Source of the DNA: Clostridia bacterium
Lineage (GTDB): Bacteria > Bacillota > Clostridia > Christensenellales > Borkfalkiaceae
Length of the DNA stretch: 64,000 bases
Direction: 5' to 3'
NCBI GenBank assembly: GCA_017545865.1
Contig: JAFWXO010000005.1
Location: forward strand, 28,281-92,280
The notes beneath the pieces are model-generated. The model saw only the letters and a program-made list of their open reading frames with translations. It was not told the DNA's origin and did not search any database. This document shows, in pieces, positions 43,978 to 57,816 of this stretch. Positions within the stretch are counted from its first letter, which is position 1. Each line of letters opens with the position of its first letter. Made by a program: the position numbers and the translations under genes.

Positions 43978-44066
43978 GGAAGTGTATCGAAGAGGTCATA
44001 ACGGCCCTGACTCGAAATCAGGTATACGGCAACGTATCGTGGGTTCGAATCCCACCGCTTCCGCCA
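43978..44066 (+). tRNA. tRNA-Ser (CGA)
   Basis: An 89-nt tRNA with acceptor ggaagtg / cgcttcc, anticodon arm cctga-ctCGAaa-tcagg, a long variable arm (tatacggcaacgta) as in serine tRNAs, T arm gtggg-ttcgaat-cccac, and an encoded CCA end. Its 3' end is the integration site of the prophage; the natural terminator of the tRNA now lies beyond the far end of the prophage at 57819. Confidence 0.95.
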
Positions 44067-44067
44067 A
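44040..44067. repeat. attL: left 28-bp attachment repeat
   Basis: Identical over 28 bases to 57789-57816, starting tgggttcgaatcccaccg. It covers the 3' half of the T arm, the acceptor strand and CCA of tRNA-Ser, so integration leaves the tRNA intact. Just inside are two ggggaa repeats at 44145 and 44157, and two similar ones lie inside attR, possible integrase arm sites. Confidence 0.92.
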
Positions 44068-44165
44068 AAACCGCTAAAATTGTGGCAAAAACCACCGTTT
44101 TGGCGGTCTTTTTATGCCGTTTTTCAAATTTTTTCTTAATTTTTGGGGAAAGTTTTGGGGAAACG

Positions 44166-45326: not shown

Positions 45327-45351
45327 AAGTTCGATTATACGCTAATTATAG

Positions 45352-45612
45352 GCTTTAAGATTATTACGTTACCTAAAAATTTTAATCGCAGGCGAATAAA
45401 ATTTTTACAAAATAAATATCAAAAAGCAGTTGCTATGCGCGACTGCTCTTTTTAGTTTCCGCCTTATCGTCAAACGAGTTTACGAGATTATCAAATATCT
45501 CTCTTTCACGTTCAGATAAACCACGATAAATTGATATTATTCGTTTTTCTGAAGAAGTGTAATCTTCCCCGGTTGTTTGAATAAACCCGAAGTCGTCTTC
45601 GTTTCCGACAAG
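45352..45612. repeat. Repressor-tail repeat, copy 1
   Basis: From 45352 the sequence gctttaagattattacg and onward through the 3' part of the repressor gene is nearly identical to 46169-46430, including about 80 bases of noncoding sequence. The coding part occurs a third time at about 46627-46845. Confidence 0.85.
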
Positions 45613-45789
45613 ATAGTCAATAGAGCAATTAAAGATACCGCTTAATTTTATAAGTGTTTCAATAGTAGGTTGAGAGCGCCCTTTCTCGTATTCGCAAATA
45701 ATATTTGGCGATAAATTTATTTTTAGCGCTAACTCTTTTTGAGAAAAATTACTAATCAACCTTAGATTCTTTAGTCGTTCATTAAACAT
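45433..45789 (-). CDS. XRE-family repressor 1
   Basis: A 118-residue regulator. Helix-turn-helix at about 12-32 (NFSQKELALKINLSPNIICEYEKG), then a tail beginning NCSIDYLVGNEDDFGF that is nearly identical to the tails of the repressors at 46249 and 46652. Translated in the same leftward unit as the integrase. Site agggg-type (aaggggtg) before the ATG. Confidence 0.88.
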   Translation of the reverse strand: MFNERLKNLRLISNFSQKELALKINLSPNIICEYEKGRSQPTIETLIKLSGIFNCSIDYLVGNEDDFGFIQTTGEDYTSSEKRIISIYRGLSEREREIFDNLVNSFDDKAETKKSSRA

Positions 45790-45804
45790 AAAAACACCCC
45801 TTTT

Positions 45805-46137
45805 TTAGAGAGCAAGGGCTTTAACGAAACCGATTGCTTCACGTTGCAAGTCGGCGGATAACAACTTAAAATATGAAAGCATTTCACTTTCATTACTCGT
45901 TAGCGCTAAGTTAGAGTTCCCGGCAATAACGCCGAAGTCGTCTTCACGACCGAGTAAATAGTCTACCGAGCAATTAAATATATCTGCAAGACTATTTAGC
46001 ATTTTTAAGTCAGGTTCATTTTGACCGTTTATCCAACGGCTAACGGTTTGTTGAGTTGTATTTAGTTTATTTGCTATTGACTGTTGGGTAAAACCTTGTT
46101 CAGACAATAAACTTCTAAAAATGGACGAAAATTTCAT
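45805..46137 (-). CDS. XRE-family repressor 2
   Basis: A 110-residue regulator with helix-turn-helix GFTQQSIANKLNTTQQTVSRWINGQ and the shared NCSVDYLLGREDDFG joint, after which the sequence departs from the other three copies (a different C-terminal 45 residues with SADLQREAIGFVKAL). Site aaaggggg upstream. Confidence 0.88.
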   Translation of the reverse strand: MKFSSIFRSLLSEQGFTQQSIANKLNTTQQTVSRWINGQNEPDLKMLNSLADIFNCSVDYLLGREDDFGVIAGNSNLALTSNESEMLSYFKLLSADLQREAIGFVKALAL

Positions 46138-46168
46138 ATAATACCCCCTTTTACAAAAAATTTTACAC

Positions 46169-46430
46169 GCTTTAAGATTATTACGTTACCTAAAAATTTT
46201 AATCGCAGGCGAATAAATTTTTACAAAATAAATATCAAAAAGCAGTTGCTATGCGCGACTGCTCTTTTTAGTTTCCGCCTTATCGTCAAACGAGTTTACA
46301 AGATTATCAAATATCTCTCTTTCACGTTCAGATAAACCGCGATAAATTGATATAATGCGCTTTTCAGCGGAAGTATAATCTTCCCCGGTTGTTTGAATAA
46401 ACCCAAAATCATCTTCACGACCGAGTAAAT
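46169..46430. repeat. Repressor-tail repeat, copy 2
   Basis: Second copy of the repeat at 45352, offset 817 bases, with one single-base deletion in the noncoding part and a few substitutions in the coding part. Confidence 0.85.
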
Positions 46431-46599
46431 AATCTATCGAACAGTTAAAGAAATTTGCTAATTTTATAATAAAACTACTGGTTGGTTCGTTTGCTCCACT
46501 CTCCCAACGCCCTATATTACGTTGACTTGTTTCGACACCTTTCGCAACTTCTAATTGTGAAAGGTTTTTTTCTTCTCTCAACTCTTTAATTCGATTCAT
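46249..46599 (-). CDS. XRE-family repressor 3
   Basis: A 116-residue regulator with helix-turn-helix NLSQLEVAKGVETSQRNIGRWESGA and the shared tail (GREDDFGFIQTTGEDYTS and ERE-rich helix ending KKSSRA). ATG 46599 has agggtgg upstream; a GTG nine bases earlier is possible. Confidence 0.85.
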   Translation of the reverse strand: MNRIKELREEKNLSQLEVAKGVETSQRNIGRWESGANEPTSSFIIKLANFFNCSIDYLLGREDDFGFIQTTGEDYTSAEKRIISIYRGLSEREREIFDNLVNSFDDKAETKKSSRA

Positions 46600-46626
46600 G
46601 GTAACCACCCTATAATGATTTTAAGC

Positions 46627-46845
46627 CCATATAAATATCAAAAGGCAGTTGCTATGCGCGACTGCTCTTTTTAATTTCCGCTTTATCGTCAAACGAGTTT
46701 ACGAGATTATCAAATATCTCTCTTTCACGTTCAGATAAACCACGATAAATTGATATTATTCGTTTTTCTGAAGAAGTGTAATCTTCCCCGGTTATTTGAA
46801 TAAACCCGAAATCGTCTTCGCGACCGAGTAAATAGTCTATCGAAC
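46627..46845. repeat. Repressor-tail repeat, copy 3
   Basis: Third copy, beginning at ataaatatcaaaaggcagtt; it lacks the first 50 noncoding bases of the other two and differs from them at scattered positions. Confidence 0.8.
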
Positions 46846-47008
46846 AGTTAAAGAAATTTGCAAATTTAATTAAGGTTTCAAAATTCATTTCAACAATTTC
46901 ACACTCGTATTTGCTAACCATTCTTTGCGTAAGCCCAATTTGCTTTGCAACTTCTGTTTGAGTTAATTTTCGTTCTTCTCTTAAAGATTTCAATATCGCA
47001 CCGTACAT
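46652..47008 (-). CDS. XRE-family repressor 4, nearest the early promoter
   Basis: A 118-residue regulator with helix-turn-helix KLTQTEVAKQIGLTQRMVSKYECE and the shared tail, here ending AEIKKSSRA. The ATG at 47008 (MYGAILKSL) has aaaggagac directly upstream; an ORF extension to 47101 would run through the promoter region. It faces the rightward promoter and operators and is the best candidate for the lysogeny repressor. Confidence 0.88.
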   Translation of the reverse strand: MYGAILKSLREERKLTQTEVAKQIGLTQRMVSKYECEIVEMNFETLIKFANFFNCSIDYLLGREDDFGFIQITGEDYTSSEKRIISIYRGLSEREREIFDNLVNSFDDKAEIKKSSRA

Positions 47009-47064
47009 TTTAGTCTCCTTTTTATTATTTTTAGCAAATTTTACTAAATTTTTGCGTAAATATA

Positions 47065-47117
47065 TTGACAATCGCAAATATTGCGTATATAATTGTGTCA
47101 AATTCGCAAATATTGCG
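47065..47117 (+). promoter_or_regulatory. Rightward early promoter with two operators
   Basis: TTGACA (47065-47070), 17 bp, TATAAT (47088-47093): full consensus. The sequence cgcaaatattgcg occurs twice, at 47073-47085 inside the spacer and at 47105-47117 just past the start point, 32 bp apart, about three helical turns. Each is a 5-bp inverted repeat (cgcaa / ttgcg) around ata. A half-site ttgcg also lies at 47052-47056. Confidence 0.85.
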
Positions 47118-47136
47118 TAATAAAAGGGGAAAAATT

Positions 47137-47199
47137 ATGGGAAAAGACTTTAACAAGCAAATTGAAGAAATGAAGATTGTTAAAGGAGTGAAACTATGA
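47137..47199 (+). CDS. 20-residue leader ORF
   Basis: MGKDFNKQIEEMKIVKGVKL, preceded by aaaagggg and overlapping the methylase ATG in an ATGA junction. It is the first reading frame behind the early promoter. It may couple translation of the methylase; no independent function can be claimed. Confidence 0.5.
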   Translation: MGKDFNKQIEEMKIVKGVKL

Positions 47200-47750
47200 A
47201 AGTAGATATATTTAATACAAATAAAAAGTACAGTATTATTTATGCTGATCCACCATGGCAGTATAAAGTGTGGTCAAAGGATACAGGGTTAAAAAGAAGT
47301 GCGGAATCTCACTATAACACCATGCAAAAAGAAGAAATACAAGGACTACCAATTCGTGAATTAACAGATAAAAATGCAGTGCTTTTTCTATGGGTAACAT
47401 ATCCATGTTTGCAAGAAGGAATAGAACTTATAACAAAATGGGGATTTACATATAAGACTTGCGCATTTTCTTGGGTGAAATTAAACAAAAAAAGCAATAC
47501 ACCTTTTACTGGTATGGGATATTACACAAGGGCTAATAATGAAATATGCTTATTAGCAACAAAAGGTAAGGTGTTGCCGAGAAAATCAAAAACAGTTAAA
47601 CAGATTGTTATGACAAAAATTGAAGAACACAGCAAGAAACCGTCAATAGTTAGAGACAGAATAACAAATTTATTCGGTGATTTACCTCGTTTAGAACTTT
47701 TTGCAAGACAACACGCTGACGGTTGGGATTGTTGGGGAAATGAGGTGTAA
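47196..47750 (+). CDS. MT-A70 family DNA adenine methyltransferase
   Basis: A 184-residue methylase with catalytic DPPW at residues 18-21 (IIYADPPWQYK), the family segment LFLWVTYPCLQEG, and GYYTRANNEICLLATKG. Phage members methylate N6 of adenine, probably against host restriction. Codon use (ATA, AGA, GGA, TTA) is clearly unlike the surrounding genes, which suggests a recent separate origin. Confidence 0.92.
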   Translation: MKVDIFNTNKKYSIIYADPPWQYKVWSKDTGLKRSAESHYNTMQKEEIQGLPIRELTDKNAVLFLWVTYPCLQEGIELITKWGFTYKTCAFSWVKLNKKSNTPFTGMGYYTRANNEICLLATKGKVLPRKSKTVKQIVMTKIEEHSKKPSIVRDRITNLFGDLPRLELFARQHADGWDCWGNEV

Positions 47751-47753
47751 CTT

Positions 47754-47798
47754 ATGCATAAAGTAATTCTTCAAGATAAAACTAATCCTGATAAATAA
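47754..47798 (+). CDS. 14-residue ORF after the methylase
   Basis: MHKVILQDKTNPDK, three bases after the methylase stop, with a weak gaggtg upstream. It may be a remnant or a coupling peptide. Confidence 0.25.
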   Translation: MHKVILQDKTNPDK

Positions 47799-47818
47799 AC
47801 AAACAAGGGGAAAGATAA

Positions 47819-48190
47819 ATGAAACGAAACCGTTCGATAAGGGTTCTTATTAAAGAGCCGGGAAAAGAGTTTAGAACTGAATATATCGACTTGACGTTTG
47901 AAAAGTACGTTGAACTTTTCGGCGTTGAGCCCAAAGATACATACCAAATGCAAGTTTTGCCTTGCTATAACGCGCTCGTTGTGTTCACTTACGAAAGCGA
48001 AAAAGAAAACTGCAGGGTTTTCGATACCGTGTTTAACGGAACGATTATGTTTGTTGGTCAAAAAATGCGTGGAGAGTTTTGCGATATTTCTTCAAAAGAT
48101 ATTGAGATAATTAAACGATTCACGCGAACTCCGTCCGATTACAACCCTAAAAAAAAACGCGCGTGGTGTAAATGGCTATGGCAGATTTAA
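47819..48190 (+). CDS. DUF3846-like small phage protein
   Basis: A 123-residue protein. SIRVLIKEPGKEFRTEYIDLTFEKYVELFG followed by VFDTVFNGTIMFVG and FCDISSKDIEIIKRF resembles the DUF3846 pattern found in phages and conjugative elements of Bacillota. Function unknown. Site aagggg before the ATG; overlaps the next gene by 19 bp. Confidence 0.6.
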   Translation: MKRNRSIRVLIKEPGKEFRTEYIDLTFEKYVELFGVEPKDTYQMQVLPCYNALVVFTYESEKENCRVFDTVFNGTIMFVGQKMRGEFCDISSKDIEIIKRFTRTPSDYNPKKKRAWCKWLWQI

Positions 48191-48561
48191 AGGTTAGCGC
48201 AGATAAGCGCGTTTCGCTTGGAAAGTTAAAAATACCGCAAAGCCCTTGCGTTCAAAAGTTTGAGCATAACGACGGTTCGTTTAGTTGCCGTGTTTGGGAT
48301 AAAGTTATATCTGAATTAAAACTTGAACTTAAAAATGCTAATTTAAACGCGTGGCAAAACAATTATAGCATTTACGGAACGAAGTGCATCGTGCCGAGCA
48401 TAAACGAACGAGAACTACTGTTTAACGTTGTTATTATCAAAAATTCAGCGCACGTTTTCACGGTTATTATATCGTCAAAAGACGGTACGACGTACGCAAA
48501 ATGCAAAAATTACGACGAAGTTAATGCGGTGCTTGCGCCGATAATTAAAAAAATAAAATAG
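48172..48561 (+). CDS. Uncharacterised prophage protein
   Basis: A 129-residue mixed alpha/beta protein (IPQSPCVQKFEHNDGSFSCRVWDK, NVVIIKNSAHVFTVIISSKDG). I do not recognise it. Its TAG stop is the first three bases of structured element A. Confidence 0.6.
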   Translation: MAMADLKVSADKRVSLGKLKIPQSPCVQKFEHNDGSFSCRVWDKVISELKLELKNANLNAWQNNYSIYGTKCIVPSINERELLFNVVIIKNSAHVFTVIISSKDGTTYAKCKNYDEVNAVLAPIIKKIK

Positions 48562-48647
48562 TCCGAAAACGTCTTCCTGGTATCGAACCTGGAGAGATAA
48601 AACGGACGGAAACTGTCCGTTTTTACTAAAATTCGGCGCTAACGTTA
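48559..48647 (+). repeat. Four-copy structured element, copy A
   Basis: Copy A of a roughly 90-nt element. It starts TAGtccgaaaacgtcttcct, with the TAG being the stop of the preceding gene. A perfect 9-bp hairpin (aaaacggac, loop ggaaact, gtccgtttt) is at 48599-48623, followed by ttcggcgctaacgtt. The 5' gtccg at 48561-48565 can pair with the cggac arm instead of the hairpin. It stands in front of the structural gene block. Confidence 0.85.
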
Positions 48648-48678
48648 GAAGATAAAAGACTTAAAAAGGGGAAAAGAA

Positions 48679-48762
48679 ATGTTAAGTTTTGTAATAGGCG
48701 CGCTCGTTGGCGCAACTATCTCAATCACCGTTCTTGCTATAATTCGCATTAACAAAAACTAA
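48679..48762 (+). CDS. 27-residue hydrophobic peptide, candidate small virion protein
   Basis: MLSFVIGALVGATISITVLAI and then a basic tail (IRINKN). One membrane span with GxxxG-type spacing and a positively charged end, the layout of the very small filamentous phage proteins pVII and pIX or the C-terminal half of pVIII. Preceded by aggggaaaag. No homology can be claimed at this length. Confidence 0.5.
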   Translation: MLSFVIGALVGATISITVLAIIRINKN

Positions 48763-48779
48763 AGATTAAACGTTATAGA

Positions 48780-48872
48780 ATCGTTTCGTTTAAAACGGTT
48801 CTTCCATAAGGGTTTGTTTCAGCCCTATTTTTCCCCGGGCTTATGCCCCGCGCTGGCAACAGTCCAGCGCGT
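48780..48872 (+). promoter_or_regulatory. Cluster of three hairpins ahead of the structural genes
   Basis: In order: aggg / ccct with a T-tract (about 48809-48832), gggc-ttat-gccc (about 48838-48848), and an 8-bp GC-rich hairpin cgcgctgg / ccagcgcg with a 7-nt loop at 48849-48871. Filamentous phages carry hairpin clusters as replication origin and packaging signal in noncoding regions; this is a candidate. Confidence 0.4.
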
Positions 48873-48900
48873 AAAAGGGGATAAAAAGAAAGGATATATT

Positions 48901-49047
48901 ATGAAAAGAGATAAAATGACTACCGTCCGCATCAACTCTGAGTTGTTTGAAAAATTCAAACAAACGGTTAGCGCGAATAACGAAGATATTACCCTTGCTG
49001 ATTTAATTGAAATCGCAATGAAAAATTATATTAAAAGCAAAGTTTAA
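48901..49047 (+). CDS. Ribbon-helix-helix protein
   Basis: A 48-residue protein (MTTVRINSELFEKFKQTVSANN, then ADLIEIAMKNYIKSK), matching the Arc/CopG ribbon-helix-helix pattern: a beta strand TTVRI and two helices. The ATG at 48901 has aaagga upstream; a longer reading frame from 48814 runs through the hairpins. Probably a DNA-binding regulator of the prophage. Confidence 0.75.
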   Translation: MKRDKMTTVRINSELFEKFKQTVSANNEDITLADLIEIAMKNYIKSKV

Positions 49048-49078
49048 CTGTTTCATTTTTTTCTCATTTACGTGTTTG

Positions 49079-49097
49079 CCGGGGGTAAATCCCCCGG
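49079..49097 (+). promoter_or_regulatory. GC-rich hairpin ccggggg/cccccgg
   Basis: A perfect 7-bp G/C stem with loop taaat in an AT-rich region and no T-run after it, so it is not a normal terminator. It lies between the ribbon-helix-helix and zinc-ribbon genes. Confidence 0.5.
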
Positions 49098-49135
49098 TTA
49101 TAACGTAACGAGAAAATTACAAAAAGGAGATTTTT

Positions 49136-49246
49136 ATGGAAAGCAAATGCGTTTATTGTGGCTGTGACGTGCCCGAAGGCGTTTATATATGCCCTAATTG
49201 TGAATATAAACTGCTTAACGGAACGGTTAAAGGCTCTTTAATTTAA
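49136..49246 (+). CDS. 36-residue zinc-ribbon protein
   Basis: Two Cys pairs, CVYCGC and CPNC, spaced eleven residues, form a small zinc ribbon; the tail is neutral. A strong site (aaggag) lies eight bases before the ATG. Unknown role. Confidence 0.6.
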   Translation: MESKCVYCGCDVPEGVYICPNCEYKLLNGTVKGSLI

Positions 49247-49287
49247 AATAAAACGTTGCTCCCAGCGATAAGGGAAAAGGTTATTTT

Positions 49288-49662
49288 ATGGCGACAATGG
49301 CTTTAAAATCTAACGTAAGAACTACAACTAAGACGAAAACACCGTCTAAACCTAAGCAAAAAGGCAAGGTAAAAACCGCCGTTAAGAAAGGTGCAAGCGC
49401 GGTTAAAAACACCGTTAAGAAAGGTGCAAGCGCAGTTAAATCTACTGCAAAAAAGGCAACCACAAAAGCAAAAAACTACACTATAACCCTAAAAGAAGCC
49501 TACAATGCCGGTTACAAAAGTGGCGTTCAAGACGCTCAAAACATTAAAAAGAGTTCTGCAGGCGCACGAATTTCCGCTAAAACGGGCTATGGTAACGCTT
49601 TAAAAAATCAAAATAAAGTTGAAAAATTAACAAATAAAGCATCTAAATCTACTAAAAAATAG
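49288..49662 (+). CDS. Histone-like Lys/Ala-rich prophage protein
   Basis: A 124-residue very basic protein. The N-terminal 60 residues resemble histone H1 tails, with a direct repeat KKGASAVKNTV / KKGASAVKSTA, followed by a helical part (LKEAYNAGYKSGVQDAQNI). It may bind the phage DNA, but this is inferred from composition only. It starts the structural run. Confidence 0.65.
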   Translation: MATMALKSNVRTTTKTKTPSKPKQKGKVKTAVKKGASAVKNTVKKGASAVKSTAKKATTKAKNYTITLKEAYNAGYKSGVQDAQNIKKSSAGARISAKTGYGNALKNQNKVEKLTNKASKSTKK

Positions 49663-49673
49663 GAGAAATAATT

Positions 49674-50294
49674 ATGAAGAAAATTTTTGTAGGCGTTGTT
49701 GCAATTGCAATAGTAGCCTTTAGTTCTTGGTTTGCCACGTCTTATCATTTAGGTGGTATTGCTAAGAGTTGGACGGAATCTAAAGATGTTCAAATTGAAC
49801 AAGAAATTCCGGGCGATGAAGAATTGCCCGGTGATGTTGAAGAACCCGGTGACGTAGAACAACCCGGTGATGTTGAAGAACCTGGTGACGTTGAAGAACC
49901 TGGTGACGTTGAAGAAGTTAACACTGCTGAAGTTAAATTATTTAATAACAATTCAGTTATTGGAGAGTTAAATACAACTACTGTAATTTCATTTTTAAAT
50001 GAAGACGGCTCTATTTATAACGGCTCTATTGAAATTAATATTTCAGACTCAACCGCTCTTATGAGTATTTACGACGTATCTACCGGTGATCCTGTAGCAA
50101 CTGAGATCTCTATTAATTCAATGCCTGATTTTTCTTTTGACGTTATTGTGAAAGATTCAACTATTGAAGTTAAATTATGCGCTGAAAAGGAATTGATTAC
50201 AGATTCATATAGGTACGTTATTTTAGATAATACGTTAACATTTGAAATCTTTGTTAATGATAATACGTCTATATTATATGAGTGTGAATTATGA
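49674..50294 (+). CDS. Secreted protein with PGDVEE repeats
   Basis: A 206-residue protein with an N-terminal signal or anchor helix (IFVGVVAIAIVAFSSWFA), then an acidic linker of six PGDVEE-type repeats (residues about 43-80), then a beta-rich domain. The linker recalls the glycine-rich linkers of filamentous phage adsorption protein pIII. aggag lies before the ATG; the stop overlaps the next start. Confidence 0.65.
   Translation: MKKIFVGVVAIAIVAFSSWFATSYHLGGIAKSWTESKDVQIEQEIPGDEELPGDVEEPGDVEQPGDVEEPGDVEEPGDVEEVNTAEVKLFNNNSVIGELNTTTVISFLNEDGSIYNGSIEINISDSTALMSIYDVSTGDPVATEISINSMPDFSFDVIVKDSTIEVKLCAEKELITDSYRYVILDNTLTFEIFVNDNTSILYECEL
49806..49917 (+). repeat. 18-bp tandem repeat coding PGDVEE
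   Basis: About six head-to-tail units of 18 bases such as cccggtgatgttgaagaa, with wobble differences between units. Such arrays change length by slippage. Confidence 0.8.
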
Positions 50295-51277
50295 AAAAAT
50301 TGTTAGTATTATTGCTTAGCCTAACATTATGTTTAGGCTTAACGTCGTCTTTAGGTTGTTCAAAAACTCCTGAAACTTTACAAGAAGATAATTTTGTTGT
50401 TGGGTCTATAACTGAAAACGGTTTAGGCTTAAAAATGTTAACGTCTGAAACGGTTGTAACTGAAACCGACAAATATTTAGAAAAGACGTTGCAAGTAACC
50501 GTTAATGGGTCTATTGCAAATGCAAAGCCTATTGATTTAGAGTGGTACGTTACTTGGTACAATAGCGCTGCAACTGAAGATATAGACGATTATTTAAAGA
50601 TTGAAACTTCTGAAGAAAACACAGTTTGCGCAGTTAGGCTTTATCAACCGCTTAATGACGTTGCAGTTATTGTCGTTCAATGCAAAAACAACGGAATTAG
50701 CGCAAGTTGTTTAGTTGAATATTGCCCTAAGGCTCATTCAACTGATTTTGTAATTAACGGGGATTATGCCGTAAGTAAATATGATACTTTAGATGGTCTT
50801 CCTGCTTTAGAACTTATTCCTGGTCAAGTATTTGAATGTTATGTTGGTTCTTATGATTTCTTTGGAAATGAAATAGGCGTTTCAAAAACATTAAACGTTG
50901 ACGATGATTTTTCATGCGGTTCAATAAATATGACTTCTATGGGGTTGCCGGGTACTGAAACTGAACATAGTTTATCTGAGTTTGTTAATCCTACTAATAT
51001 TTACGTTACACCTTATGTATTATGGAGTTTCAATGAAGAAACGTGCATTTTGAGAATTGAAGCGGTTACTGCATTAGAAGATCTTAAAATAGAAACTGTT
51101 AGTCCTACTATGTATGACGGTTTTTATTCGGTTGAAAGCACGTTGATTCCTTATTTTGAAATTCATTTAAATGATTATGAAATTGTTGGTAATGAACCTT
51201 TACAATTATCAGTAAAAGTTCGTGTTGTTAGATCAGTTCATTTAAGTCTTAATAATTCAAATATTACGTTTGAATAA
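50291..51277 (+). CDS. Prophage-encoded lipoprotein
   Basis: A 328-residue protein with signal peptide and lipobox (SSLGC, Cys23), then beta-rich domains with few Cys. It overlaps the preceding gene in an ATGA junction. A lipoprotein on the host surface could act in superinfection exclusion, or the protein may be a virion component. No family recognised. Confidence 0.6.
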   Translation: MKKLLVLLLSLTLCLGLTSSLGCSKTPETLQEDNFVVGSITENGLGLKMLTSETVVTETDKYLEKTLQVTVNGSIANAKPIDLEWYVTWYNSAATEDIDDYLKIETSEENTVCAVRLYQPLNDVAVIVVQCKNNGISASCLVEYCPKAHSTDFVINGDYAVSKYDTLDGLPALELIPGQVFECYVGSYDFFGNEIGVSKTLNVDDDFSCGSINMTSMGLPGTETEHSLSEFVNPTNIYVTPYVLWSFNEETCILRIEAVTALEDLKIETVSPTMYDGFYSVESTLIPYFEIHLNDYEIVGNEPLQLSVKVRVVRSVHLSLNNSNITFE

Positions 51278-51291
51278 AGCGTAGGTGCGTT

Positions 51292-51456
51292 ATGAAAAAG
51301 TTTATTTTAATACTTTTATTGCTAGTTATAACAGTTGTTTTAGTTATAGTTGTTATTAAAGGTATTAACGGTAATAGCGTTCAAGCGCCTATAATTCCTG
51401 CACCGAACACCGATTTAATGTTGGTATTAAGTGAAAAATATATACTGTTTGAATAA
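51292..51456 (+). CDS. 54-residue single-span membrane protein
   Basis: MKKFILILLL with one membrane span to about residue 23, then a Pro-containing outer part ending LSEKYILFE. Its size fits a minor or major coat protein precursor of a filamentous phage, but charge pattern does not clearly match. The start codon has only a weak upstream site (taggtgcg). Confidence 0.5.
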   Translation: MKKFILILLLLVITVVLVIVVIKGINGNSVQAPIIPAPNTDLMLVLSEKYILFE

Positions 51457-51484
51457 AAAAAGCGGATAAATGTCCGCTTTTTAT
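51457..51484 (+). terminator. Terminator inside the structural block
   Basis: Hairpin aaagcgga / tccgcttt with a T-run directly after, two bases past the stop of the 54-residue gene. It probably lowers read-through into the large surface-protein gene. Confidence 0.78.
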
Positions 51485-51497
51485 TAAAGGTAAAAGT

Positions 51498-53186
51498 ATG
51501 AAAAAGTTAATTTTAAGTGTAATTTTAGCGTTCTCATTATGTTTAAGTGGCTTAGGTAGTATACCGGTAAAGGCTGAAACTATTAAACTGGGAGAAGATA
51601 TTCAAAAGGAACTTGAAGACGTTGATTTAACACCGTTTGAACTTGCCGGCAAAACTGACGTTATAACTGTTTCAGAAGTCGGTTTTGGAACGGAAGATTA
51701 TAAGGTTATTATTTACATTTATAACGCTGGAAAGATTAAGTTTAGTAAAGGCAGTCCGTCTAACGTAGTTAACCTTGCGGTAAGATTTGACGATGATTTA
51801 AACGCTGAAGTTTATTCGAATTTCAAACTTGAATACATTTCTTCAACTGAAGATGAGAGTATTTATAAGTTCGCCGTAAACGACGAATACAGCACGTTAA
51901 AACTCCTTTCCGAAGAATTGAACGAAAAACATAATAAGCGCCGTTACAACGTTGCAGGTGTTCAGTTAATCGAATTAGGTGCAAGAACTGCGGTTGATTA
52001 TAAGGTTGCAAAATCTTATGATTTTAAGGGAAAAGATTCAACTCTTACTATAAACGAATTTGAAACAATCGAATTAGAAGTTTATCCGCTCTGGTATCGT
52101 ACGGAATCTGGCGCAGCTGTAGGTCACCAAAATCAATTAAACGGCGTTTATTTTTCAGTCCCTGACACTTATTCTAATGACGGTTATAAATTAACCAAAA
52201 TTAAGGCTGAGTGGTATGAATATAAAACGGAAGCAGTTGTTGTATTAGACAGCGATAGTTTACTTAATAAAGTAACTCCTTATATTGGACGAAAAATAGA
52301 CGGTTATGATGCTTCATTGCCTACTTTGAGCGTTATGGAAGCTCATATGTATGATAAAGATCTTTTATATTGGTCTTACAATGCGGATTTGGGCGATTTT
52401 TTCAATTCAATTTATACCAGTGATAATTTAGTTTACGCGTTTACTAAAGACGAAAATGGAAAAGTTTCTTCAGAGCGATTGACTGATTATATTTATAGTT
52501 ATAATTCAAGTGCTTATAAAGGTTATTTGCCTATTAAAAACGGACAAGTTTCGGCTGATTTGTTTTTAGATAACGTAGACGAAGGTCGAACTCGTGGTTA
52601 TAACTGTGTTGAAATTTCTGCTGACGATAGTTATGATTTGTTAAGTTATGATGATACTCATAATTGGTTTGAAACTGTTTGGGATTATGGTCTTTGGGAT
52701 ACGTTGTTGGGTAGAGTTCCCACCGATAGCAGTAAAATAGGTGTTAAAGCGATTGAACTCATAAGCGACGAGCAAGTGAAAAACAAAGGTTCTATATCTT
52801 CTGAACTTCTTATGGATTACGAATTGGTTGACGATTTTAAAACTTTTTATGACAATTCAAAGAAAGCAGAAAAAGATACATATATATTTAGATTTGCTTC
52901 AACTGATTATGCTAGTGGCGATCTTTTAGGTTCTTCGGGTGGCACTTCTTTAACTGGATACGCGGCGTGGGAAACGGTATTTTTAGATTTTGATATTATT
53001 CAACTTGAATTTGATAATGGAAATCATAATCTTGTTATTCCTGTTGTGGCTAGTCCTGTTGATATTATTCCAACAATTACTCCCCCACCCGTTTATGGTA
53101 ATAATTGGTTTTGGTATCTTGTTGCAACAATGCTTTTTTGTGTTGGTGGAATAGTAGTTTATAAACTCATAAAGGAGAATAAATAA
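51498..53186 (+). CDS. Candidate adsorption protein (pIII-like)
   Basis: A 562-residue protein with signal peptide (cleavage likely after PVKAE), a large beta-rich exterior, a Pro-rich stretch (ITPPPV) and a C-terminal membrane anchor (NWFWYLVATMLFCVGGIVVYKLI) with a basic end. This topology, and its place before a small membrane protein and the Zot ATPase, is that of pIII in filamentous phages. No sequence-level family is recognised, as usual for this fast-changing protein. Confidence 0.65.
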   Translation: MKKLILSVILAFSLCLSGLGSIPVKAETIKLGEDIQKELEDVDLTPFELAGKTDVITVSEVGFGTEDYKVIIYIYNAGKIKFSKGSPSNVVNLAVRFDDDLNAEVYSNFKLEYISSTEDESIYKFAVNDEYSTLKLLSEELNEKHNKRRYNVAGVQLIELGARTAVDYKVAKSYDFKGKDSTLTINEFETIELEVYPLWYRTESGAAVGHQNQLNGVYFSVPDTYSNDGYKLTKIKAEWYEYKTEAVVVLDSDSLLNKVTPYIGRKIDGYDASLPTLSVMEAHMYDKDLLYWSYNADLGDFFNSIYTSDNLVYAFTKDENGKVSSERLTDYIYSYNSSAYKGYLPIKNGQVSADLFLDNVDEGRTRGYNCVEISADDSYDLLSYDDTHNWFETVWDYGLWDTLLGRVPTDSSKIGVKAIELISDEQVKNKGSISSELLMDYELVDDFKTFYDNSKKAEKDTYIFRFASTDYASGDLLGSSGGTSLTGYAAWETVFLDFDIIQLEFDNGNHNLVIPVVASPVDIIPTITPPPVYGNNWFWYLVATMLFCVGGIVVYKLIKENK

Positions 53187-53368
53187 TGTTAGTTTCGTTT
53201 TTTATATTTATAATTTCGGTTTGTTTTATGTTTATCGCTAAACGTTTAGCGATAAAGTGGGTTTTTTTGACTCTTATGGCTGAAATAAGTATATACTTAT
53301 TAGTTGCTTGTGCGGTGTTATTCGTTACAATGGGTGTTGTAACGATAGTTAAAGCTATTAAGAAATGA
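53186..53368 (+). CDS. Small two-span membrane protein (pVI-like position)
   Basis: A 60-residue protein with two membrane helices. The ATG overlaps the preceding stop (TAATG) and its own stop overlaps the Zot start. In filamentous phages the minor coat protein pVI sits here. aaggag precedes it. Confidence 0.6.
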   Translation: MLVSFFIFIISVCFMFIAKRLAIKWVFLTLMAEISIYLLVACAVLFVTMGVVTIVKAIKK

Positions 53369-54171
53369 TTACTGTTGTATACGGCGCGCCGGGCGCAGGC
53401 AAAGGCGCGCTGATGACTCACTTTATAAAGGATATTTATAAATCTGAAGGGCGAAAAATTCTTAATAATTGCATAGGAAAAATTCAAGAATACAACGTGG
53501 AGTTTGACAAAGTGCTAAACGCACCGGAAAGAGTGCCTATTTTTAGTGATTACAAGGTTAAATTCCGCGTTGGTTACGAAAAATTCTATGAAACGTATTT
53601 TTTAAACGGTTATTATTTCGGTTTAGAGAACGAAAACGTGCCAGTAATTCACGTTCCGCCGTTCTCAAAGGTGTTTTTAACCGAAGTTCAACGTTATTAT
53701 GACTCGCGAAAGAGTTCAACGCTAAAAGATTTTGTTAGCAGGCTCTACGAAATGCACCGTCACAATAACATTGATATTTTTCTTGACTTGCAACGTCTAA
53801 GCCTTTTAGATCTAAATATCCGTGACCTTGCAAAACGCGTTATTTATATTGAAGAACTTACTCATGAGCTTGACGGCAATAAAATATTGTCGTCAACGTG
53901 GAAATGTAAAGAATTTGCCAGCGCTTCAGATGCCGACCGTTTCTTTAATGACGGCGCTGAAACGTACACTAACGTTGAATACAAGCATTTGGGCAACATA
54001 TTTAACGCTTACGACAGTTTTTCGAATAAAGATAAGTTTATCCCTAAAGGAAAATACACCTATCTTGAACACGATAGAGTGATTGAAGAAAACAAAGAAT
54101 ATTTTAACTTTGCTATGCCTGAGTTTTACCGCAAGGATAAGCCTAAAGACAAAAAGGAGAAAGCATCTTGA
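53365..54171 (+). CDS. Zot-domain ATPase, filamentous phage assembly protein (pI-like)
   Basis: A 268-residue ATPase. Walker A GAPGAGKG at residues 7-14, Walker B FLTEVQRYYDSR at about 104-115, and DIFLDLQRLSLLDLNIRDL further on match the Zot (PF05707) family that drives extrusion of filamentous phages. Unlike Ff pI, no C-terminal membrane span is seen; the tail is charged and Lys-rich. This is the marker gene of inoviruses. Confidence 0.88.
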   Translation: MITVVYGAPGAGKGALMTHFIKDIYKSEGRKILNNCIGKIQEYNVEFDKVLNAPERVPIFSDYKVKFRVGYEKFYETYFLNGYYFGLENENVPVIHVPPFSKVFLTEVQRYYDSRKSSTLKDFVSRLYEMHRHNNIDIFLDLQRLSLLDLNIRDLAKRVIYIEELTHELDGNKILSSTWKCKEFASASDADRFFNDGAETYTNVEYKHLGNIFNAYDSFSNKDKFIPKGKYTYLEHDRVIEENKEYFNFAMPEFYRKDKPKDKKEKAS

Positions 54172-54605
54172 AAGAAATTTACGATTTAAACGAACAATTT
54201 TTCGAACTTTATGCTCGAATTAATGAATACTCTTCAGATATGACAAAACGTCAAACAGATGCAATGACTTCTCGTTTACTTAAACAGTATGAAGTTGAGT
54301 TTAAAAAACTTGAAACTCAAAAGCTTATACGTGATAAGCGTGAAATTTATGAAATTAAGACTCAAAAAGGTTATTATCTTCCAAAACGAAAGTTATTTTT
54401 GTTTAAAAATAAACTTGCAAAACTTATATCTCAAGATATAAAAAACACCGCTAAAGAATATTACGAAAAGTATTTCAATAAAAAAATTGAGTTGCTATCG
54501 CAAGACGGAGAAGAAGTCGAAGACGAAAACGTTATGCAAACTCAAACTGAAGAACAAGAGAACGAGCCGGGCGAAAAAGAAGAAATACCTTTATCAGAAA
54601 CATAA
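54168..54605 (+). CDS. Coiled-coil protein downstream of zot
   Basis: A 145-residue highly charged, largely helical protein with a Glu-rich C-terminus. It starts at a TTG that overlaps the zot stop, with aaaaaggag directly before it, so it is translated together with the ATPase and may work with it. Not recognised. Confidence 0.65.
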   Translation: MKEIYDLNEQFFELYARINEYSSDMTKRQTDAMTSRLLKQYEVEFKKLETQKLIRDKREIYEIKTQKGYYLPKRKLFLFKNKLAKLISQDIKNTAKEYYEKYFNKKIELLSQDGEEVEDENVMQTQTEEQENEPGEKEEIPLSET

Positions 54606-54625
54606 AACTGTTTTGATAAACTTAT

Positions 54626-54668
54626 ACCGGCGCAGAAATTCGAGAAGTATGCCGAATTTCGCGCCGGT
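54626..54668 (+). promoter_or_regulatory. Long stable hairpin after the zot operon
   Basis: Sixteen base pairs with one bulged A: accggcgc-a-gaaattcg pairs with cgaatttc-gcgccggt, loop ten bases. No T-run follows. It may be a terminator of the operon, or part of the replication or packaging region of the phage. Confidence 0.65.
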
Positions 54669-54705
54669 GTTGTTATAGTTACAAATAAAGCTTAATCCTT
54701 TTTTC

Positions 54706-54729
54706 TCGAAAATGGCTTGCCATTTTCGA
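54706..54729 (+). promoter_or_regulatory. Second stable hairpin
   Basis: A perfect 10-bp stem tcgaaaatgg / ccattttcga with loop cttg, 37 bases after the previous one and ahead of the gene at 54760. Confidence 0.6.
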
Positions 54730-54759
54730 AAAATTGTATATACAAATACGGAGAATTTT

Positions 54760-55215
54760 ATGTCAATTTTTAATATTTTCAAACGAAAAAAAACCGCCAA
54801 ACGTGGCGATTTTTATAAAACTACCGATAGTTTTCTCCGTGGTAAAGAAAACGTCGGAAAAAAAAGAACTGTAGTCGTTTACGATAAGCGTAAAGACGAT
54901 GGCGCTCTTGCTGTAAGTAAAATATATTCTAAAGAAGACAAAAACCCTAAAAATTTAATCGATGATTTAACTCTCACACCAAAAAAGCATAAATCTTTAA
55001 AGGAAGAGTCTGCAATAGGAACGAGAGTTCTTTGGGGGGCTAAAAGCGGTAAAGATTTTAAACCTATTTATTCAAGCGATATGCAAAAAGTTAATGACAA
55101 ACTCACACGTTCTGAAAAGAAGAAGTACATAAAAAATGCCGGGGGAAAGGAAGAAAAGCACAAACAAACTTTACGTACTACCGCCGGCAAATGGAAAAAA
55201 CATTTTAAAGAATAA
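54760..55215 (+). CDS. Basic prophage protein of unknown function
   Basis: A 151-residue Lys-rich protein (FNIFKRKKTAKRGDFYK at the start). The ATG at 54760 with acggag upstream is chosen; a longer frame from 54712 would begin inside the hairpin. Separate from the zot operon by two strong hairpins. Not recognised; charge suggests nucleic-acid binding. Confidence 0.6.
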   Translation: MSIFNIFKRKKTAKRGDFYKTTDSFLRGKENVGKKRTVVVYDKRKDDGALAVSKIYSKEDKNPKNLIDDLTLTPKKHKSLKEESAIGTRVLWGAKSGKDFKPIYSSDMQKVNDKLTRSEKKKYIKNAGGKEEKHKQTLRTTAGKWKKHFKE

Positions 55216-55282
55216 AAAAACCGCACCCCCTTTCGGCTGATGCGGGTTGGAACGTGCTCGAGTCAACGTTCCCGCCTAACTA
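55216..55282 (+). terminator. Folded region ending the rightward operon
   Basis: Starts directly after the stop codon. Possible stems are ccgca / tgcgg, gcggg / cccgc and ggaacgt / acgttcc (loop ten bases); the first two exclude each other. Termination is plausible but there is no T-run. Confidence 0.4.
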
Positions 55283-55342
55283 GCAATATTATTATATGCT
55301 ATTTTAATAATTTTGTCAACTATTTATGCAAATTTAATTTAA

Positions 55343-55442
55343 ATGGCTGTTTTAGTCCGAAAATGTCTTCCTGGTATCGATTGCGCCGAGCAAAAACGGA
55401 CGGAAACTGTCCGTTTTGATATTCAGAACGGCGCTAACGTCA
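55343..55442 (+). repeat. Four-copy structured element, copy B
   Basis: Copy B lies between the rightward structural block and the converging repressor gene at 55456. It shares ggctgttttagtccgaaaa with copy C, the hairpin (55393-55417) with all copies, and cggcgctaacgtc with copies A and D. A TAG triplet again starts the core, though no clear gene ends there. The middle stretch (ttgcgccgagc) differs from A and C. Confidence 0.82.
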
Positions 55443-55455
55443 AATAAAAACGGAC

Positions 55456-55665
55456 TTATATCTTCGTACCGTCGGGAAACTCGAAGCCAAAAACGTATTT
55501 ACCGCCGAGAACTTCTGCTATTTTAGATAATTCTTCAGGCGAAAACTTACAAACCTTTAACCTTGAATTAAACGTGGCTGGCGTAACTTCCAAAGCACGT
55601 GCTAACGTTGCTTGAGATATTCCAGCGTATGTGCAAGCCATTTCTATTTTTTTTCGTAAATCCAT
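55456..55665 (-). CDS. Small XRE-family regulator A
   Basis: A 69-residue protein with helix-turn-helix GISQATLARALEVTPATFNSRL and a C-terminal strand YVFGFEFPDGTKI shared with its neighbour. Site aaggatg before the ATG. The pair share about half of their residues and probably arose by duplication. Confidence 0.8.
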   Translation of the reverse strand: MDLRKKIEMACTYAGISQATLARALEVTPATFNSRLKVCKFSPEELSKIAEVLGGKYVFGFEFPDGTKI

Positions 55666-55686
55666 AACACAACATCCTTATAAAAA

Positions 55687-55896
55687 CTAAATCTCCGTAC
55701 CGTCAGGAAACTTAAAACCGTAAACATATTCTCCGCCGAGAATATTAGCAATCAATGATAGTTCATCATTTGTTAAAGTTTCACGTTTAATTTTATTATT
55801 AAGGTTTGAGGCAGTTTGCCCCATTTGTCTTGCTAATTCACGTTGACTAATCCCTTTGTAAGATAAAGCCATTTTAATTTTTTGTTCAATTGTCAT
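55687..55896 (-). CDS. Small XRE-family regulator B
   Basis: A 69-residue protein with GISQRELARQMGQTASNLNNKI and the same C-terminal EYVYGFKFPDGTEI. The ATG at 55896 is fixed by aggagg upstream. It is the first gene behind the leftward promoter of the second switch and likely represses both promoters there. Confidence 0.85.
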   Translation of the reverse strand: MTIEQKIKMALSYKGISQRELARQMGQTASNLNNKIKRETLTNDELSLIANILGGEYVYGFKFPDGTEI

Positions 55897-55917
55897 ATAA
55901 ATATTCCTCCTATATTT

Positions 55918-55946
55918 AATATACATTAAAAAGTGTATTATGTCAA
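55918..55946 (-). promoter_or_regulatory. Leftward promoter of the second switch, with operator
   Basis: On the minus strand TTGACA (55946-55941), 17 bp, TATATT (55923-55918). The spacer and -10 hold the operator atacattaaaaagtgtat at 55921-55938, an imperfect inverted repeat (tacattn / gtgta). Confidence 0.75.
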
Positions 55947-56008
55947 CTTAAAAATATATACTATACACGAAATAGTAAAAAATTTTTATTAAAAAATCAA
56001 TTAAACAG

Positions 56009-56037
56009 TTGACAATGTACATTAAACGGTGTATATT
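56009..56037 (+). promoter_or_regulatory. Rightward promoter of the second switch, with operator
   Basis: TTGACA (56009-56014), 17 bp, TATATT (56032-56037), the same boxes and spacing as the leftward promoter. The operator gtacattaaacggtgtat lies at 56017-56034 and shares the tacattaaa and gtgtat ends with the left one. Confidence 0.8.
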
Positions 56038-56093
56038 GTATTTGTAATCAAGTTGCAACGGTATTACAAAAATACAATTTTAGGAGTAGGAAA

Positions 56094-56237
56094 ATGACAA
56101 AGTACGAGAAAGATTTTGAAGAAGTTGTCGCATTACTTAATACGTTAATTAGCGATTTAGTACACGTTGTCAGAGTTGTAAGTATCAAATTAGATGATTA
56201 TGAGAATTATAAAAAAAATTTCAAGGTAATTAAATGA
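56094..56237 (+). CDS. 47-residue helical protein behind the second switch
   Basis: MTKYEKDFEEVVALLNTLIS and further helix with many Val and Leu; probably a short coiled coil. Ribosome site taggag before the ATG; the stop overlaps the next small frame in an ATGA junction. Function unknown. Confidence 0.55.
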   Translation: MTKYEKDFEEVVALLNTLISDLVHVVRVVSIKLDDYENYKKNFKVIK

Positions 56238-56296
56238 AAAAATCAAATTCTAAACAATCTAATATTTTGCAAATTTTATTCAAAGGGCTGTTTTAG
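56234..56296 (+). CDS. 20-residue ORF ending in element C
   Basis: MKKSNSKQSNILQILFKGLF, coupled to the previous frame by ATGA overlap. Its last codons and TAG stop are ggctgttttag, the 5' edge shared by elements B and C, so the element has supplied the stop. Confidence 0.4.
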   Translation: MKKSNSKQSNILQILFKGLF

Positions 56297-56375
56297 TCCG
56301 AAAACGTCTTCCTGGTATCGAAGCTGCAGAGATAAAACGGACGGAAACTGTCCGTTTTTCCTTAAGGACGGCAAA
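56285..56375 (+). repeat. Four-copy structured element, copy C
   Basis: Almost identical to copy A over the first 65 bases. The hairpin is at 56334-56358 and the 5' gtccg at 56296-56300. It lacks the gctaacgt end of the other copies and runs into aaaattactaaaggaaaatt. It lies 34 bases before the tandem winged-helix gene, so it forms the leader of that gene. Confidence 0.85.
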
Positions 56376-56408
56376 ATTACTAAAGGAAAATTAAAGGGAA
56401 AAATAAAA

Positions 56409-57233
56409 ATGAAATACTTAAAATCTGAACTTAATGAAACGAGAAACTTTAAAAACCTATTAGTTGAATACGTTCCGTATCCGCTTGGGTTTTCTCTCAA
56501 ACATAATTTATCGCATACTCAAACGTTGTTGTATGCGATAATTTCGCATTATTCGAAATTTGAATACGGAGCGTTCACCGGTTCTATAAGGACTTTGCAA
56601 GTAATGCTCAACGCTTCACGTTCTGCAGTTGAAACAAATCTTAAGGTTCTTATTGATCGTAAATTCATAGATAAAAAAGACGTTAACGGTCGCGCTTATT
56701 ACAAAGACAACGTAAGCGAAAAACCGTCTAAACGCGCCTTATACGTCGCTTATCCGTTAAGTTTTGCTGTTAAATTTAATTTATCTCATACACAGACGTT
56801 ATTGTATGCGATTATTGCGCATTATAGCCGTTCAAAATATAAGGCATACACTGGCTCGCTAAATACTCTGCAAGACTATCTTAACTGCTCGCGCGGAAAC
56901 GTAAATAATAACCTTATAACGCTTATTAAACGGGGGTTTATACTCAAGTATAAAGACGAGTCGGCAAACGTTACTTTCGTTGATGGCCTGAGCCATAAAC
57001 CCGGCAAAACCGAGAAAGAACTTGAGATTAACGCGCTTTGGGTTTCCGAACACAGTCTCACGCGTGAGAAAACGGGGCGTTCAGCGCGTAAAAAGGGTTT
57101 AACGGTACTTAGTTCAACAACACCCCAAAACGAGCGTTTAGGGGCGCATTTTGCAAACGAGCGACCACACGACCCGAAACAAAGAGAAAAACTTATTGAA
57201 CATTTTAATAATTATAAGGTTGACGACGAATAA
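56409..57233 (+). CDS. Tandem winged-helix protein, candidate replication initiator
   Basis: A 274-residue protein made of two copies of a winged-helix module: residues 24-87 and 115-178 share YPL-F, NLSHTQTLLYAII-HYS, TGS--TLQ--LN-SR and N--LI-R-FI. The module resembles HTH_36-type domains of plasmid and phage replication proteins. The C-terminal 90 residues are basic and low-complexity. No HUH nuclease motif is present. It follows the second switch and is bracketed by elements C and D. Confidence 0.65.
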   Translation: MKYLKSELNETRNFKNLLVEYVPYPLGFSLKHNLSHTQTLLYAIISHYSKFEYGAFTGSIRTLQVMLNASRSAVETNLKVLIDRKFIDKKDVNGRAYYKDNVSEKPSKRALYVAYPLSFAVKFNLSHTQTLLYAIIAHYSRSKYKAYTGSLNTLQDYLNCSRGNVNNNLITLIKRGFILKYKDESANVTFVDGLSHKPGKTEKELEINALWVSEHSLTREKTGRSARKKGLTVLSSTTPQNERLGAHFANERPHDPKQREKLIEHFNNYKVDDE

Positions 57234-57324
57234 TAAGTCCGTTACAGCCCGACGTTGCCGGGAATCGAAGACGAAAAACGGACGGAAACTGTCCGTTTTT
57301 GCTTAAGTTCGGCGCTAACGTCAA
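57234..57324 (+). repeat. Four-copy structured element, copy D
   Basis: Starts one base after the TAA stop of the winged-helix gene. It has gtccgtt at 57237-57243, the hairpin at 57275-57299, and ttcggcgctaacgtc at the end. The 5' part is the most divergent (cccgacgttgccggg, itself a small hairpin), yet gtccgtt can pair over 7 bp with aacggac of the hairpin arm. gacgtt (57251-57256) can also pair with aacgtc (57318-57323). Confidence 0.82.
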
Positions 57325-57338
57325 AAATTATTGTACTA

Positions 57339-57368
57339 AAAAAGGCGAAATTTACAATTCGCCTTTTT
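57339..57368 (+). terminator. Terminator of the winged-helix operon
   Basis: An 11-bp hairpin (aaaaaggcgaa / ttcgccttttt) with a short T-run. Confidence 0.82.
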
Positions 57369-57409
57369 AAATTGCGGAAAATTTTCGATAACTGCTTATA
57401 TTTTTGAAA

Positions 57410-57485
57410 ATTTACTGTACAAATAAAAACATTATTTGTTAAAAAAACGGTATTACGCGTAGTTCGTTGATTTTGTACAGTAAAT
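57410..57485. repeat. 14-bp perfect inverted repeat near attR
   Basis: atttactgtacaaa at 57410-57423 and its exact complement tttgtacagtaaat at 57472-57485, 48 bases apart, in a noncoding AT-rich stretch. Candidate replication-initiator or integrase/excisionase binding sites. Confidence 0.6.
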
Positions 57486-57788
57486 ACAAAAGGTTAATAA
57501 GATTTTAAGATATTATTATCACGCGCGAGCGCGTGTGAAAAGGGCGCGAATAAACTTTAAATGAAAATAACCGTACGGCTCGCGTTACGGTTTCCTTTTT
57601 GAATTATAATTGGGCGCGACGTGCTTAACGTCGTATACGTACGTATAGCACGCGAAACGGTTCATATTTTAACTCAGATAAAGGGAATTTATACAATAAA
57701 CTTGCAGTTTTTAAAACAAAATTGGGGAATAAATAAGGGGAAAAACGCTAAAAAAACGGCTTAATCTCGAATATTTTAAATTTACTAT
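57486..57788. other. Noncoding dyad-rich arm before attR
   Basis: No gene is seen. It holds a hairpin cacgcgc-ga-gcgcgtg (57529-57544), a terminator-like hairpin aaccgta / tacggtt followed by tccttttt (57569-57600), a 14-bp palindrome tatacgtacgtata (57634-57647) enclosed by cgtgct / agcacg, and two gggga repeats at 57724 and 57737 that resemble those inside attL. Confidence 0.5.
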
Positions 57789-57816
57789 TGGGTTCGAATC
57801 CCACCGCTTCCGCCAA
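57789..57816. repeat. attR: right 28-bp attachment repeat
   Basis: The second copy of the 28-bp core, 13749 bases from attL. The flanking bases differ on both sides (t versus g before, g versus a after), which sets the limits of the core. Confidence 0.92.

Follow-up and report, generated by a model that had tools for sequence, protein, structure and literature searches.

Four copies of a hairpin element at gene ends in a prophage

We examined a 64,000-nucleotide stretch of DNA from a Clostridia bacterium (Christensenellales, Borkfalkiaceae; assembly GCA_017545865.1, contig JAFWXO010000005.1, positions 28,281 to 92,280), here called the window, which contains a prophage. It measures about 13.7 kb and is inserted at the 3' end of a tRNA-Ser gene, where 28-bp direct repeats flank it. 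The subject of this report is a short element repeated in that prophage, which combines a perfect 25-nt hairpin, AAAACGGAC-GGAAACT-GTCCGTTTT, with a GTCCG box upstream of it. Four exact plus-strand copies of the hairpin (A to D, beginning at 48599, 55393, 56334 and 57275) were found, all inside the prophage. The parts of the element and the open reading frames (ORFs) that they adjoin are as follows.

48561..48565, plus: GTCCG box of copy A, its first G being the final base of the TAG stop (48559-48561) of ORF 48172-48561
48599..48623, plus: terminator-like hairpin of copy A, T-tract of 5 on plus and 4 on minus
48634..48645, plus: right-arm motif CGGCGCTAACGT of copy A, 45 nt upstream of the ATG of the next small ORF (48679)
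55355..55359, plus: left GTCCG box of copy B; the preceding 30 nt resemble the end of the 20-amino-acid (20-aa) ORF of copy C, but with an in-frame stop (by hand)
55393..55417, unstranded: hairpin of copy B, T-tract of 5 on minus (TTTTTGC) and 4 on plus (TTTTGAT)
55429..55440, plus: right-arm motif CGGCGCTAACGT of copy B
55451..55455, minus: second outer box of copy B, reading GTCCGTTTT on minus; adjoins the TAA of the XRE-type ORF 55456-55665 (minus), lies 37 nt from CGGAC and has a 9-bp complement to the 5' arm
56234..56296, plus: predicted 20-aa ORF MKKSNSKQSNILQILFKGLF, with an ATGA overlap with ORF 56094-56237; its TAG gives the G of box C
56296..56300, plus: GTCCG box of copy C
56334..56358, plus: hairpin of copy C, T-tract of 5 on plus and 4 on minus; the ATG that opens the replication-initiator-like ORF 56409-57233 follows after 50 bases
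57237..57241, plus: GTCCG box of copy D (GTCCGTT, 7-bp complement), immediately 3' of TAATAA, whose first TAA ends ORF 56409-57233
57275..57299, plus: hairpin of copy D, T-tract of 5 on both strands
57310..57321, plus: right-arm motif CGGCGCTAACGT of copy D

A preliminary description of the locus had proposed a fourfold repeated element with an invariant perfect hairpin, and this held: the pattern AAAACGGACN7GTCCGTTTT, searched in the window with up to three mismatches, gave five matches, namely the four exact copies and one 3-mismatch site at 52537, at a shuffle expectation of 0.08. Throughout the genome, the 17-base core within two mismatches occurred at five places, the four exact copies and a 2-mismatch site on another contig in DNA judged by eye to be coding. 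The copy starts first given (48559, 55343, 56285 and 57234) were approximate, the boxes in fact beginning at 48561, 55355, 56296 and 57237, and CGGCGCTAACGT was found, as described, in three of the four copies (A, B and D).

The GTCCG already reported as common to all copies stands at a fixed distance, 37 nt before the CGGAC of the 5' arm, and the same spacing was found in a fifth intact arm, which copy B carries on its minus strand (AAGTCCGTTTTT), making five of five (A, B, C and D on plus, B on minus). Searching the window for GTCCG-N37-CGGAC-N7-GTCCG with up to two mismatches returned six matches, five exact and one with two mismatches on the minus strand inside C (shuffle expectation 0.05). 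GTCCG..CGGAC pairs were counted at gaps of 20-60 nt in 50 host-clade sequences (767,824 bases, the window among them): five lie in the window, all at 37 nt, and 25 elsewhere, none at 37 nt. Box and stem are invariant across the five arms, as is 1 of the 33 interior columns. The spacers of A, B and C are alike. Compared ungapped with A, the spacer of D is identical at 10/33 positions and the right-hand spacer of B at 5/33, neither better than chance (1526 and 4695 of 5000 shuffles as good), and D and B-right show a weak likeness to each other (13/33; 77/5000 shuffles as good). An atcga block thought to be shared is present, but its offset differs in D. The right-hand outer boxes are degenerate in A (AGTCTT) and D (AGTACA), at places without a gene end, and C has no right box.

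Boxes adjoin or overlap a stop codon at four gene ends, those of ORF 48172 (A), the 20-aa ORF (C), ORF 56409 (D) and, on the minus strand, the XRE-type ORF (B); in D, a second TAA separates the box from the stop of ORF 56409-57233. The hairpin begins 37 nt from the stop in A and C, 38 nt in B on minus and 41 nt in D, counted from the first TAA. The plus-side box of B also stands behind a TAG, but in a decayed copy of the segment upstream of C. Among 75 ORF/terminator pairs (ORFs of at least 80 aa, A and D included), a stop-adjacent copy of the 3' arm was present in three, two of them A and D, compared with 15 of 600 background windows. A looser scan gave seven stop-abutting arms, five of which are those described here, and 14 for control triplets, eight of these from one tandem repeat in a single locus (L049). 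T-tract length tracks the gene served, being longer on plus for A and C, longer on minus for B and equal for D. The preliminary description mentions neither the T-tract direction, nor the stop-codon adjacency, nor the second, minus-strand arm of B.

Terminator-like build and two exclusive folds

Each stem has five inner pairs, four of them GC, plus four AU pairs, and a T-tract of 4-5 (inside and after the stem) at a gene end, which is the pattern of an intrinsic terminator. The A-tract/stem/T-tract build is shared by terminators of the host clade. This match in hairpin design and T-tract direction suggests that the hairpins are terminators, and we infer that they probably act in transcription termination, a view common to the two leading explanations discussed below. 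Hairpins resembling AAAAACGGACGG were present in 6 of 19 family loci examined, all chosen for likeness to the hairpin of copy B. The stop-to-hairpin distance had a median of 12 nt in 78 ORF/terminator pairs (A and D included), and the element's copies, at 37-41 nt, lie far back. In an E. coli system, according to the parts of Li et al. 2015 (PMC4824070) consulted, termination was maximal beyond 27 nt from the stop codon.

Every copy has two mutually exclusive folds that share the CGGAC strand, as the preliminary description had recognized. The box pairing spans 5 bp in A, C and the plus strand of B and 7 bp in D, the latter as first reported, and can reach 9 bp on the minus strand of B. Antiterminator energies for the isolated segments were -15.2 (A), -9.0 (B plus), -10.1 (C), -13.7 (D) and -13.1 (B minus) kcal/mol, and those of the terminator were -12.8 (plus) and -10.2 (minus) kcal/mol. 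A GU pair extends the stem in plus-strand RNA only.

Proposed reading and its alternatives

We propose that the element is a portable gene-end cassette in which an intrinsic terminator hairpin 37 to 41 nt behind a stop codon would work together with a GTCCG box. The box touches the stop codon or overlaps it, and its sequence is that of the terminator 3' arm. In the RNA, the box can pair with CGGAC of the 5' arm while the 3' arm is still to be transcribed, and this antiterminator (box:CGGAC) and the terminator (CGGAC:GTCCG) exclude each other; as the box is transcribed first, kinetics could favour the antiterminator. A ribosome at the stop codon would cover the box and not the hairpin, so that the terminator would form behind a translated gene, and an unoccupied box would pair first, letting polymerase read through. 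Each copy would serve the gene ending at its box (A, C and D on plus, B on minus). Same-strand ORFs lie downstream of A and C, which would tune the structural operon and the replication initiator, respectively; none lies close by for D and B on minus, which would mainly close their units.

The repeat, its geometry, the stop adjacency and the T-tract direction can be read directly from the sequence, whereas termination, switching and the direction of switching are inferences in this proposal, whose parts we grade separately. Our preferred reading, which is tentative and somewhat short of probable, is a repeated terminator cassette in which the stop-adjacent box has some effect on termination. 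Its ribosome-gated form, taken alone, is doubtful. A phage-wide translation-termination sensor, in which a ribosome at several gene ends would cover or free the box and polymerase would stop or read on, with one copy acting on the opposite strand, appears unlikely. If the box works, termination at several phage gene ends would be set by the ribosome at the stop codon, with neither ligands nor dedicated proteins. This would make the element a compact, portable link between the end of translation and the end of transcription, and a ready tool for tests of ribosome-polymerase coupling in a bacterial clade that has received little study.

Several points weigh against the cassette reading. None of the plus-strand copies was listed by a simple terminator scan, which gave just short minus-strand variants at the four sites, and the GC part of the stem is short compared with other terminators in the window. 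The box pairing is only 5 bp in three arms, and for 42 of 205 terminator-like hairpins (those of the element counted too) some 5-mer that could pre-empt the fold occurs within 60 nt; such a 5-mer near a hairpin is common, and the fixed spacing and stop adjacency are uncommon. At equilibrium the antiterminator had a probability of at most 0.005 on the plus strand and was dominant only on the minus strand of B (0.80). Since the plus-strand equilibrium favours the terminator, a switch would need kinetics or a helper. Compensatory changes, whose absence from homologues the preliminary description had named as refuting its proposal, were not seen: no pair covaries in either fold across the copies. 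The plus-side box of B is retained although its upstream frame has decayed, and the 20-aa ORF at C is a predicted one. The left arms of A, B and C are near copies, so that at most three arms are independent, and D-left may be related to B-right. In hosts similar to B. subtilis, polymerase may outrun ribosomes. Overall, switching is plausible but unproven.

The hairpins could instead be plain, partly bidirectional intrinsic terminators, with an ancestral gene-end segment copied by recombination to three more ends and the box as its idle edge, in which case the element would be an ordinary family of repeated terminators. This would agree with a hairpin design like that of ordinary clade terminators and with the strong preference for the terminator fold on plus. 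In D's place behind the initiator gene, a prophage of the same genus (genome G004) has an ordinary-looking terminator (by eye); in addition, A's right arm is an old leader common to that prophage, and the left flank of B is that of C, copied and decayed. The recurrence of the 37-nt spacing despite dissimilar spacers and the placing of the box at unrelated stop codons on both strands are left unexplained, as is the degeneration of the right outer boxes of A and D where no gene ends. We consider plain terminators a fairly unlikely account.

A further alternative is a DNA site in which box and stem arms form four half-sites for a phage protein acting in replication, repression, packaging or recombination. 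Exact spacing around an unconserved filler would suit such a site, the 42 bp between box centre and stem-arm centre amount arithmetically to four helical turns and would place both on one face, and copy B contains the dyad GTCCG-37-CGGAC-7-GTCCG-37-CGGAC. Three copies lie near the initiator gene, and exact copies occur in the phage only. Neither stop-codon abutment nor T-tract direction is explained by a DNA site, the right box is degenerate in A and D and absent in C, the stem-extending GU pair belongs only to plus-strand RNA, and the G004 prophage, with a related initiator, shows no copy. Taken together, these points make a DNA site improbable.

A short non-autonomous mobile element (like a miniature inverted-repeat transposable element) with AGTCCG ends, inserting at the TA of stop codons, is very improbable. 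The outer ends of B do read AGTCCG/CGGACT and a TA is present at every left edge, but no copy was found outside the prophage (own genome; nine genus genomes), the right ends of A, C and D are degenerate or absent, the arms differ in kind and no target duplication was seen by eye; copies at unrelated places, terminal repeats and target duplications, which mark such elements, are not found together here. The AGTCCG/CGGACT outer boxes were also compared with integron attC sites, whose outer core-site consensus is RYYYAAC/GTTRRRY, and do not have these core sites.

A small-molecule riboswitch, or another conserved structured RNA with a defined pocket, shares the mutually exclusive folds, but is hardly credible. 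With 1 of 33 interior columns invariant across arms, the interior is unconserved, which makes a ligand riboswitch unlikely; interior folds differ among the copies, and no riboswitch feature tested, including a conserved aptamer, was found. The prophage was scanned and the element had no Rfam match up to E 5. Among the options offered in the preliminary description, a terminator plus antiterminator is best supported, and an aptamer-type switch is not supported. Equally remote is a remnant of a repeated small coding sequence: the box-started frame VR..LPGI(E/D)..KRTETVRF holds in all four copies, B has an ATG in it and the best 15-nt match of the A and D spacers is 11/15 (22/1000 shuffles as good), but the A/B/C differences are spread over codon positions (3,3,3; 1,1,0; 3,2,3), A's frame ends right behind the hairpin, no start signal was seen by eye, Pfam gave no match for three of the four peptides tested, and the B peptide had no phage match.

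Prophage setting, distribution and known systems

The prophage as a whole has the following features.

44040..57816, unstranded: prophage, delimited by the tRNA-Ser 3'-end direct repeats of 28 bp (44040-44067 / 57789-57816)
44166-45326, minus: tyrosine integrase gene, within the prophage
53365-54171: Zot-domain ORF (domain E 9e-8)

It also encodes an MT-A70 methyltransferase, and its ORF 56409-57233 contains HTH_36 and has weak matches to replication initiators. We provisionally label it inovirus-like on the basis of the Zot domain. The Zot and initiator proteins had no relatives in viral contigs, the initiator had none in phage records, and copy A had no phage DNA match. Four consecutive regulator-like ORFs lie at 45433-47008 (minus); HTH_3 was searched for and found in two (45433, 46652), the others being alike by sequence, and three of the four have near-identical C-terminal halves (87-88% DNA identity over 255 nt). 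Other phage gene junctions (48780-49100; 51457-51482) have strong hairpins too, for example at 48849-48871 and 51457-51482, of different sequence. The DNA from copy D to attR is AT-rich and contains a perfect 13-bp inverted repeat (TTTACTGTACAAA / TTTGTACAGTAAA, 48 nt between arms) at 57411-57484, which may possibly represent integrase arm sites or a replication origin. Beside copy B, at 55319-55217 (minus), a perfect 12/12 promoter (TTGACA-17-TATAAT) is followed by the hairpin GGAACGT..ACGTTCC and a terminator-like hairpin, possibly a small RNA of about 70 nt. Antisense control of the element by this candidate was not supported, its complementarity not exceeding that of shuffles (52/300 as good for D, 161-194 for the others).

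No homologue of the full element was found in any search run; only the right-arm leader recurs, in the same-genus prophage. The preliminary description had also tied its case to copies in related elements, and as far as we searched none has a full copy. In 301 host-family genomes there was no full copy in the 40 examined of 57 other Zot places, and a DNA search with copy B, in which at most two candidates were scored per genome, gave, among the matches listed, only short ones outside the own genome. At least 253 genomes (own included) had some match at E <=1, the best beyond the own genome, among matches listed, having E 1e-4 over 29 nt. With a covariance model applied to nine genus genomes (150 of several hundred candidates scored per genome), the four true copies scored 92-107 bits and all else at most 26.5 bits, some of these being the copies' own minus strand; 11 loci examined had generic hairpins or none. 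The exact geometry occurred twice in 84,980 species genomes, in a planctomycete and in Catenulispora, members of unrelated phyla, where about two matches are expected by chance by our own estimate, and not at all in viral contigs. In the latter, the 17-base core had four matches, all aligning only over 17-30 nt at the hairpin (nhmmer), of which the two examined (L006, L009) were other sequence without the flanks; a left-arm 16-mer had seven, and the hairpin core was in none of those loci. Among relatives' genomes, 23 of 61 (own included) had the core within two mismatches, exact in the own genome only, and the seven places scored (L010-L016) all matched only in part.

Exact CGGCGCTAACGTYA occurred at nine places in the nine genus genomes: three elements, one intergenic G004 site and five with an open frame through the motif, four of which read Gly-Ala-Asn-Val. 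The G004 prophage (L134) has a homologue of ORF 48172 with about 30% identity to it (E 6e-9). Behind this homologue come a different hairpin, GTTAGCGC..GCGCTAAC, and the same CGGCGCTAACGTTA as in A, again 45 nt upstream of the next ATG; A's right arm is therefore an older leader. Among the 300 other family genomes, homologues of ORF 48172 were found in one (E <=0.001) and of the initiator in three (E <=1e-5). As the left side of B appears to be copied from C and the right arm is found in B and D, we think that the element spread within this phage. The initiators of the window (56409-57233) and G004 prophages are of a double winged-helix type. An inovirus-like contig of another genome (G005, L048) has a larger ORF at 13540-12410 (minus) that we take to resemble a rolling-circle Rep, and replication genes seem to differ between related prophages. 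The same contig holds two 77%-identical, structured-looking repeat copies (184 nt) at about 1061-1350 and 151-440 (minus), in which a stem is retained with changes on both sides (by eye) and which had no Rfam match up to E 0.5.

The element shares its build and gene-end position with the clade's intrinsic terminators and differs from them in its shorter GC part, its larger stop distance (37-41 against a median of 12 nt), its repetition with flanks and its stop-adjacent 3'-arm copy. In trp-type attenuators, segment pairings 2:3 and 3:4 are mutually exclusive. The element similarly has three mutually complementary segments with exclusive pre-emptor:arm and terminator pairings (5 to 9 bp) and a stop codon at the terminator-pre-empting segment, and copy C lies behind a 20-aa ORF and before the initiator gene. 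Unlike such attenuators, it also has boxes at the ends of full-length genes (A, D and B on minus), its 20-aa ORF has no run of regulatory codons, and no gene that B or D could control lies downstream on the strand served. When rep genes are attenuated by antisense RNA (pIP501/pT181 type), a pre-emptor and terminator lie upstream of a replication initiator, as in copy C, but the sole nearby antisense candidate has no complementarity above shuffles. Among the literature matches listed, including the available parts of PMC4824070 and PMC6813254, no description of such an element was found. The stop-distance effect of Li et al. 2015 (PMC4824070), as far as the parts consulted describe it, also couples translation termination to intrinsic termination; there the ribosome blocks the hairpin itself, whereas in the present element it would favour the hairpin by covering a separate box. 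The element probably represents a known type of gene-end control in an unusual form.

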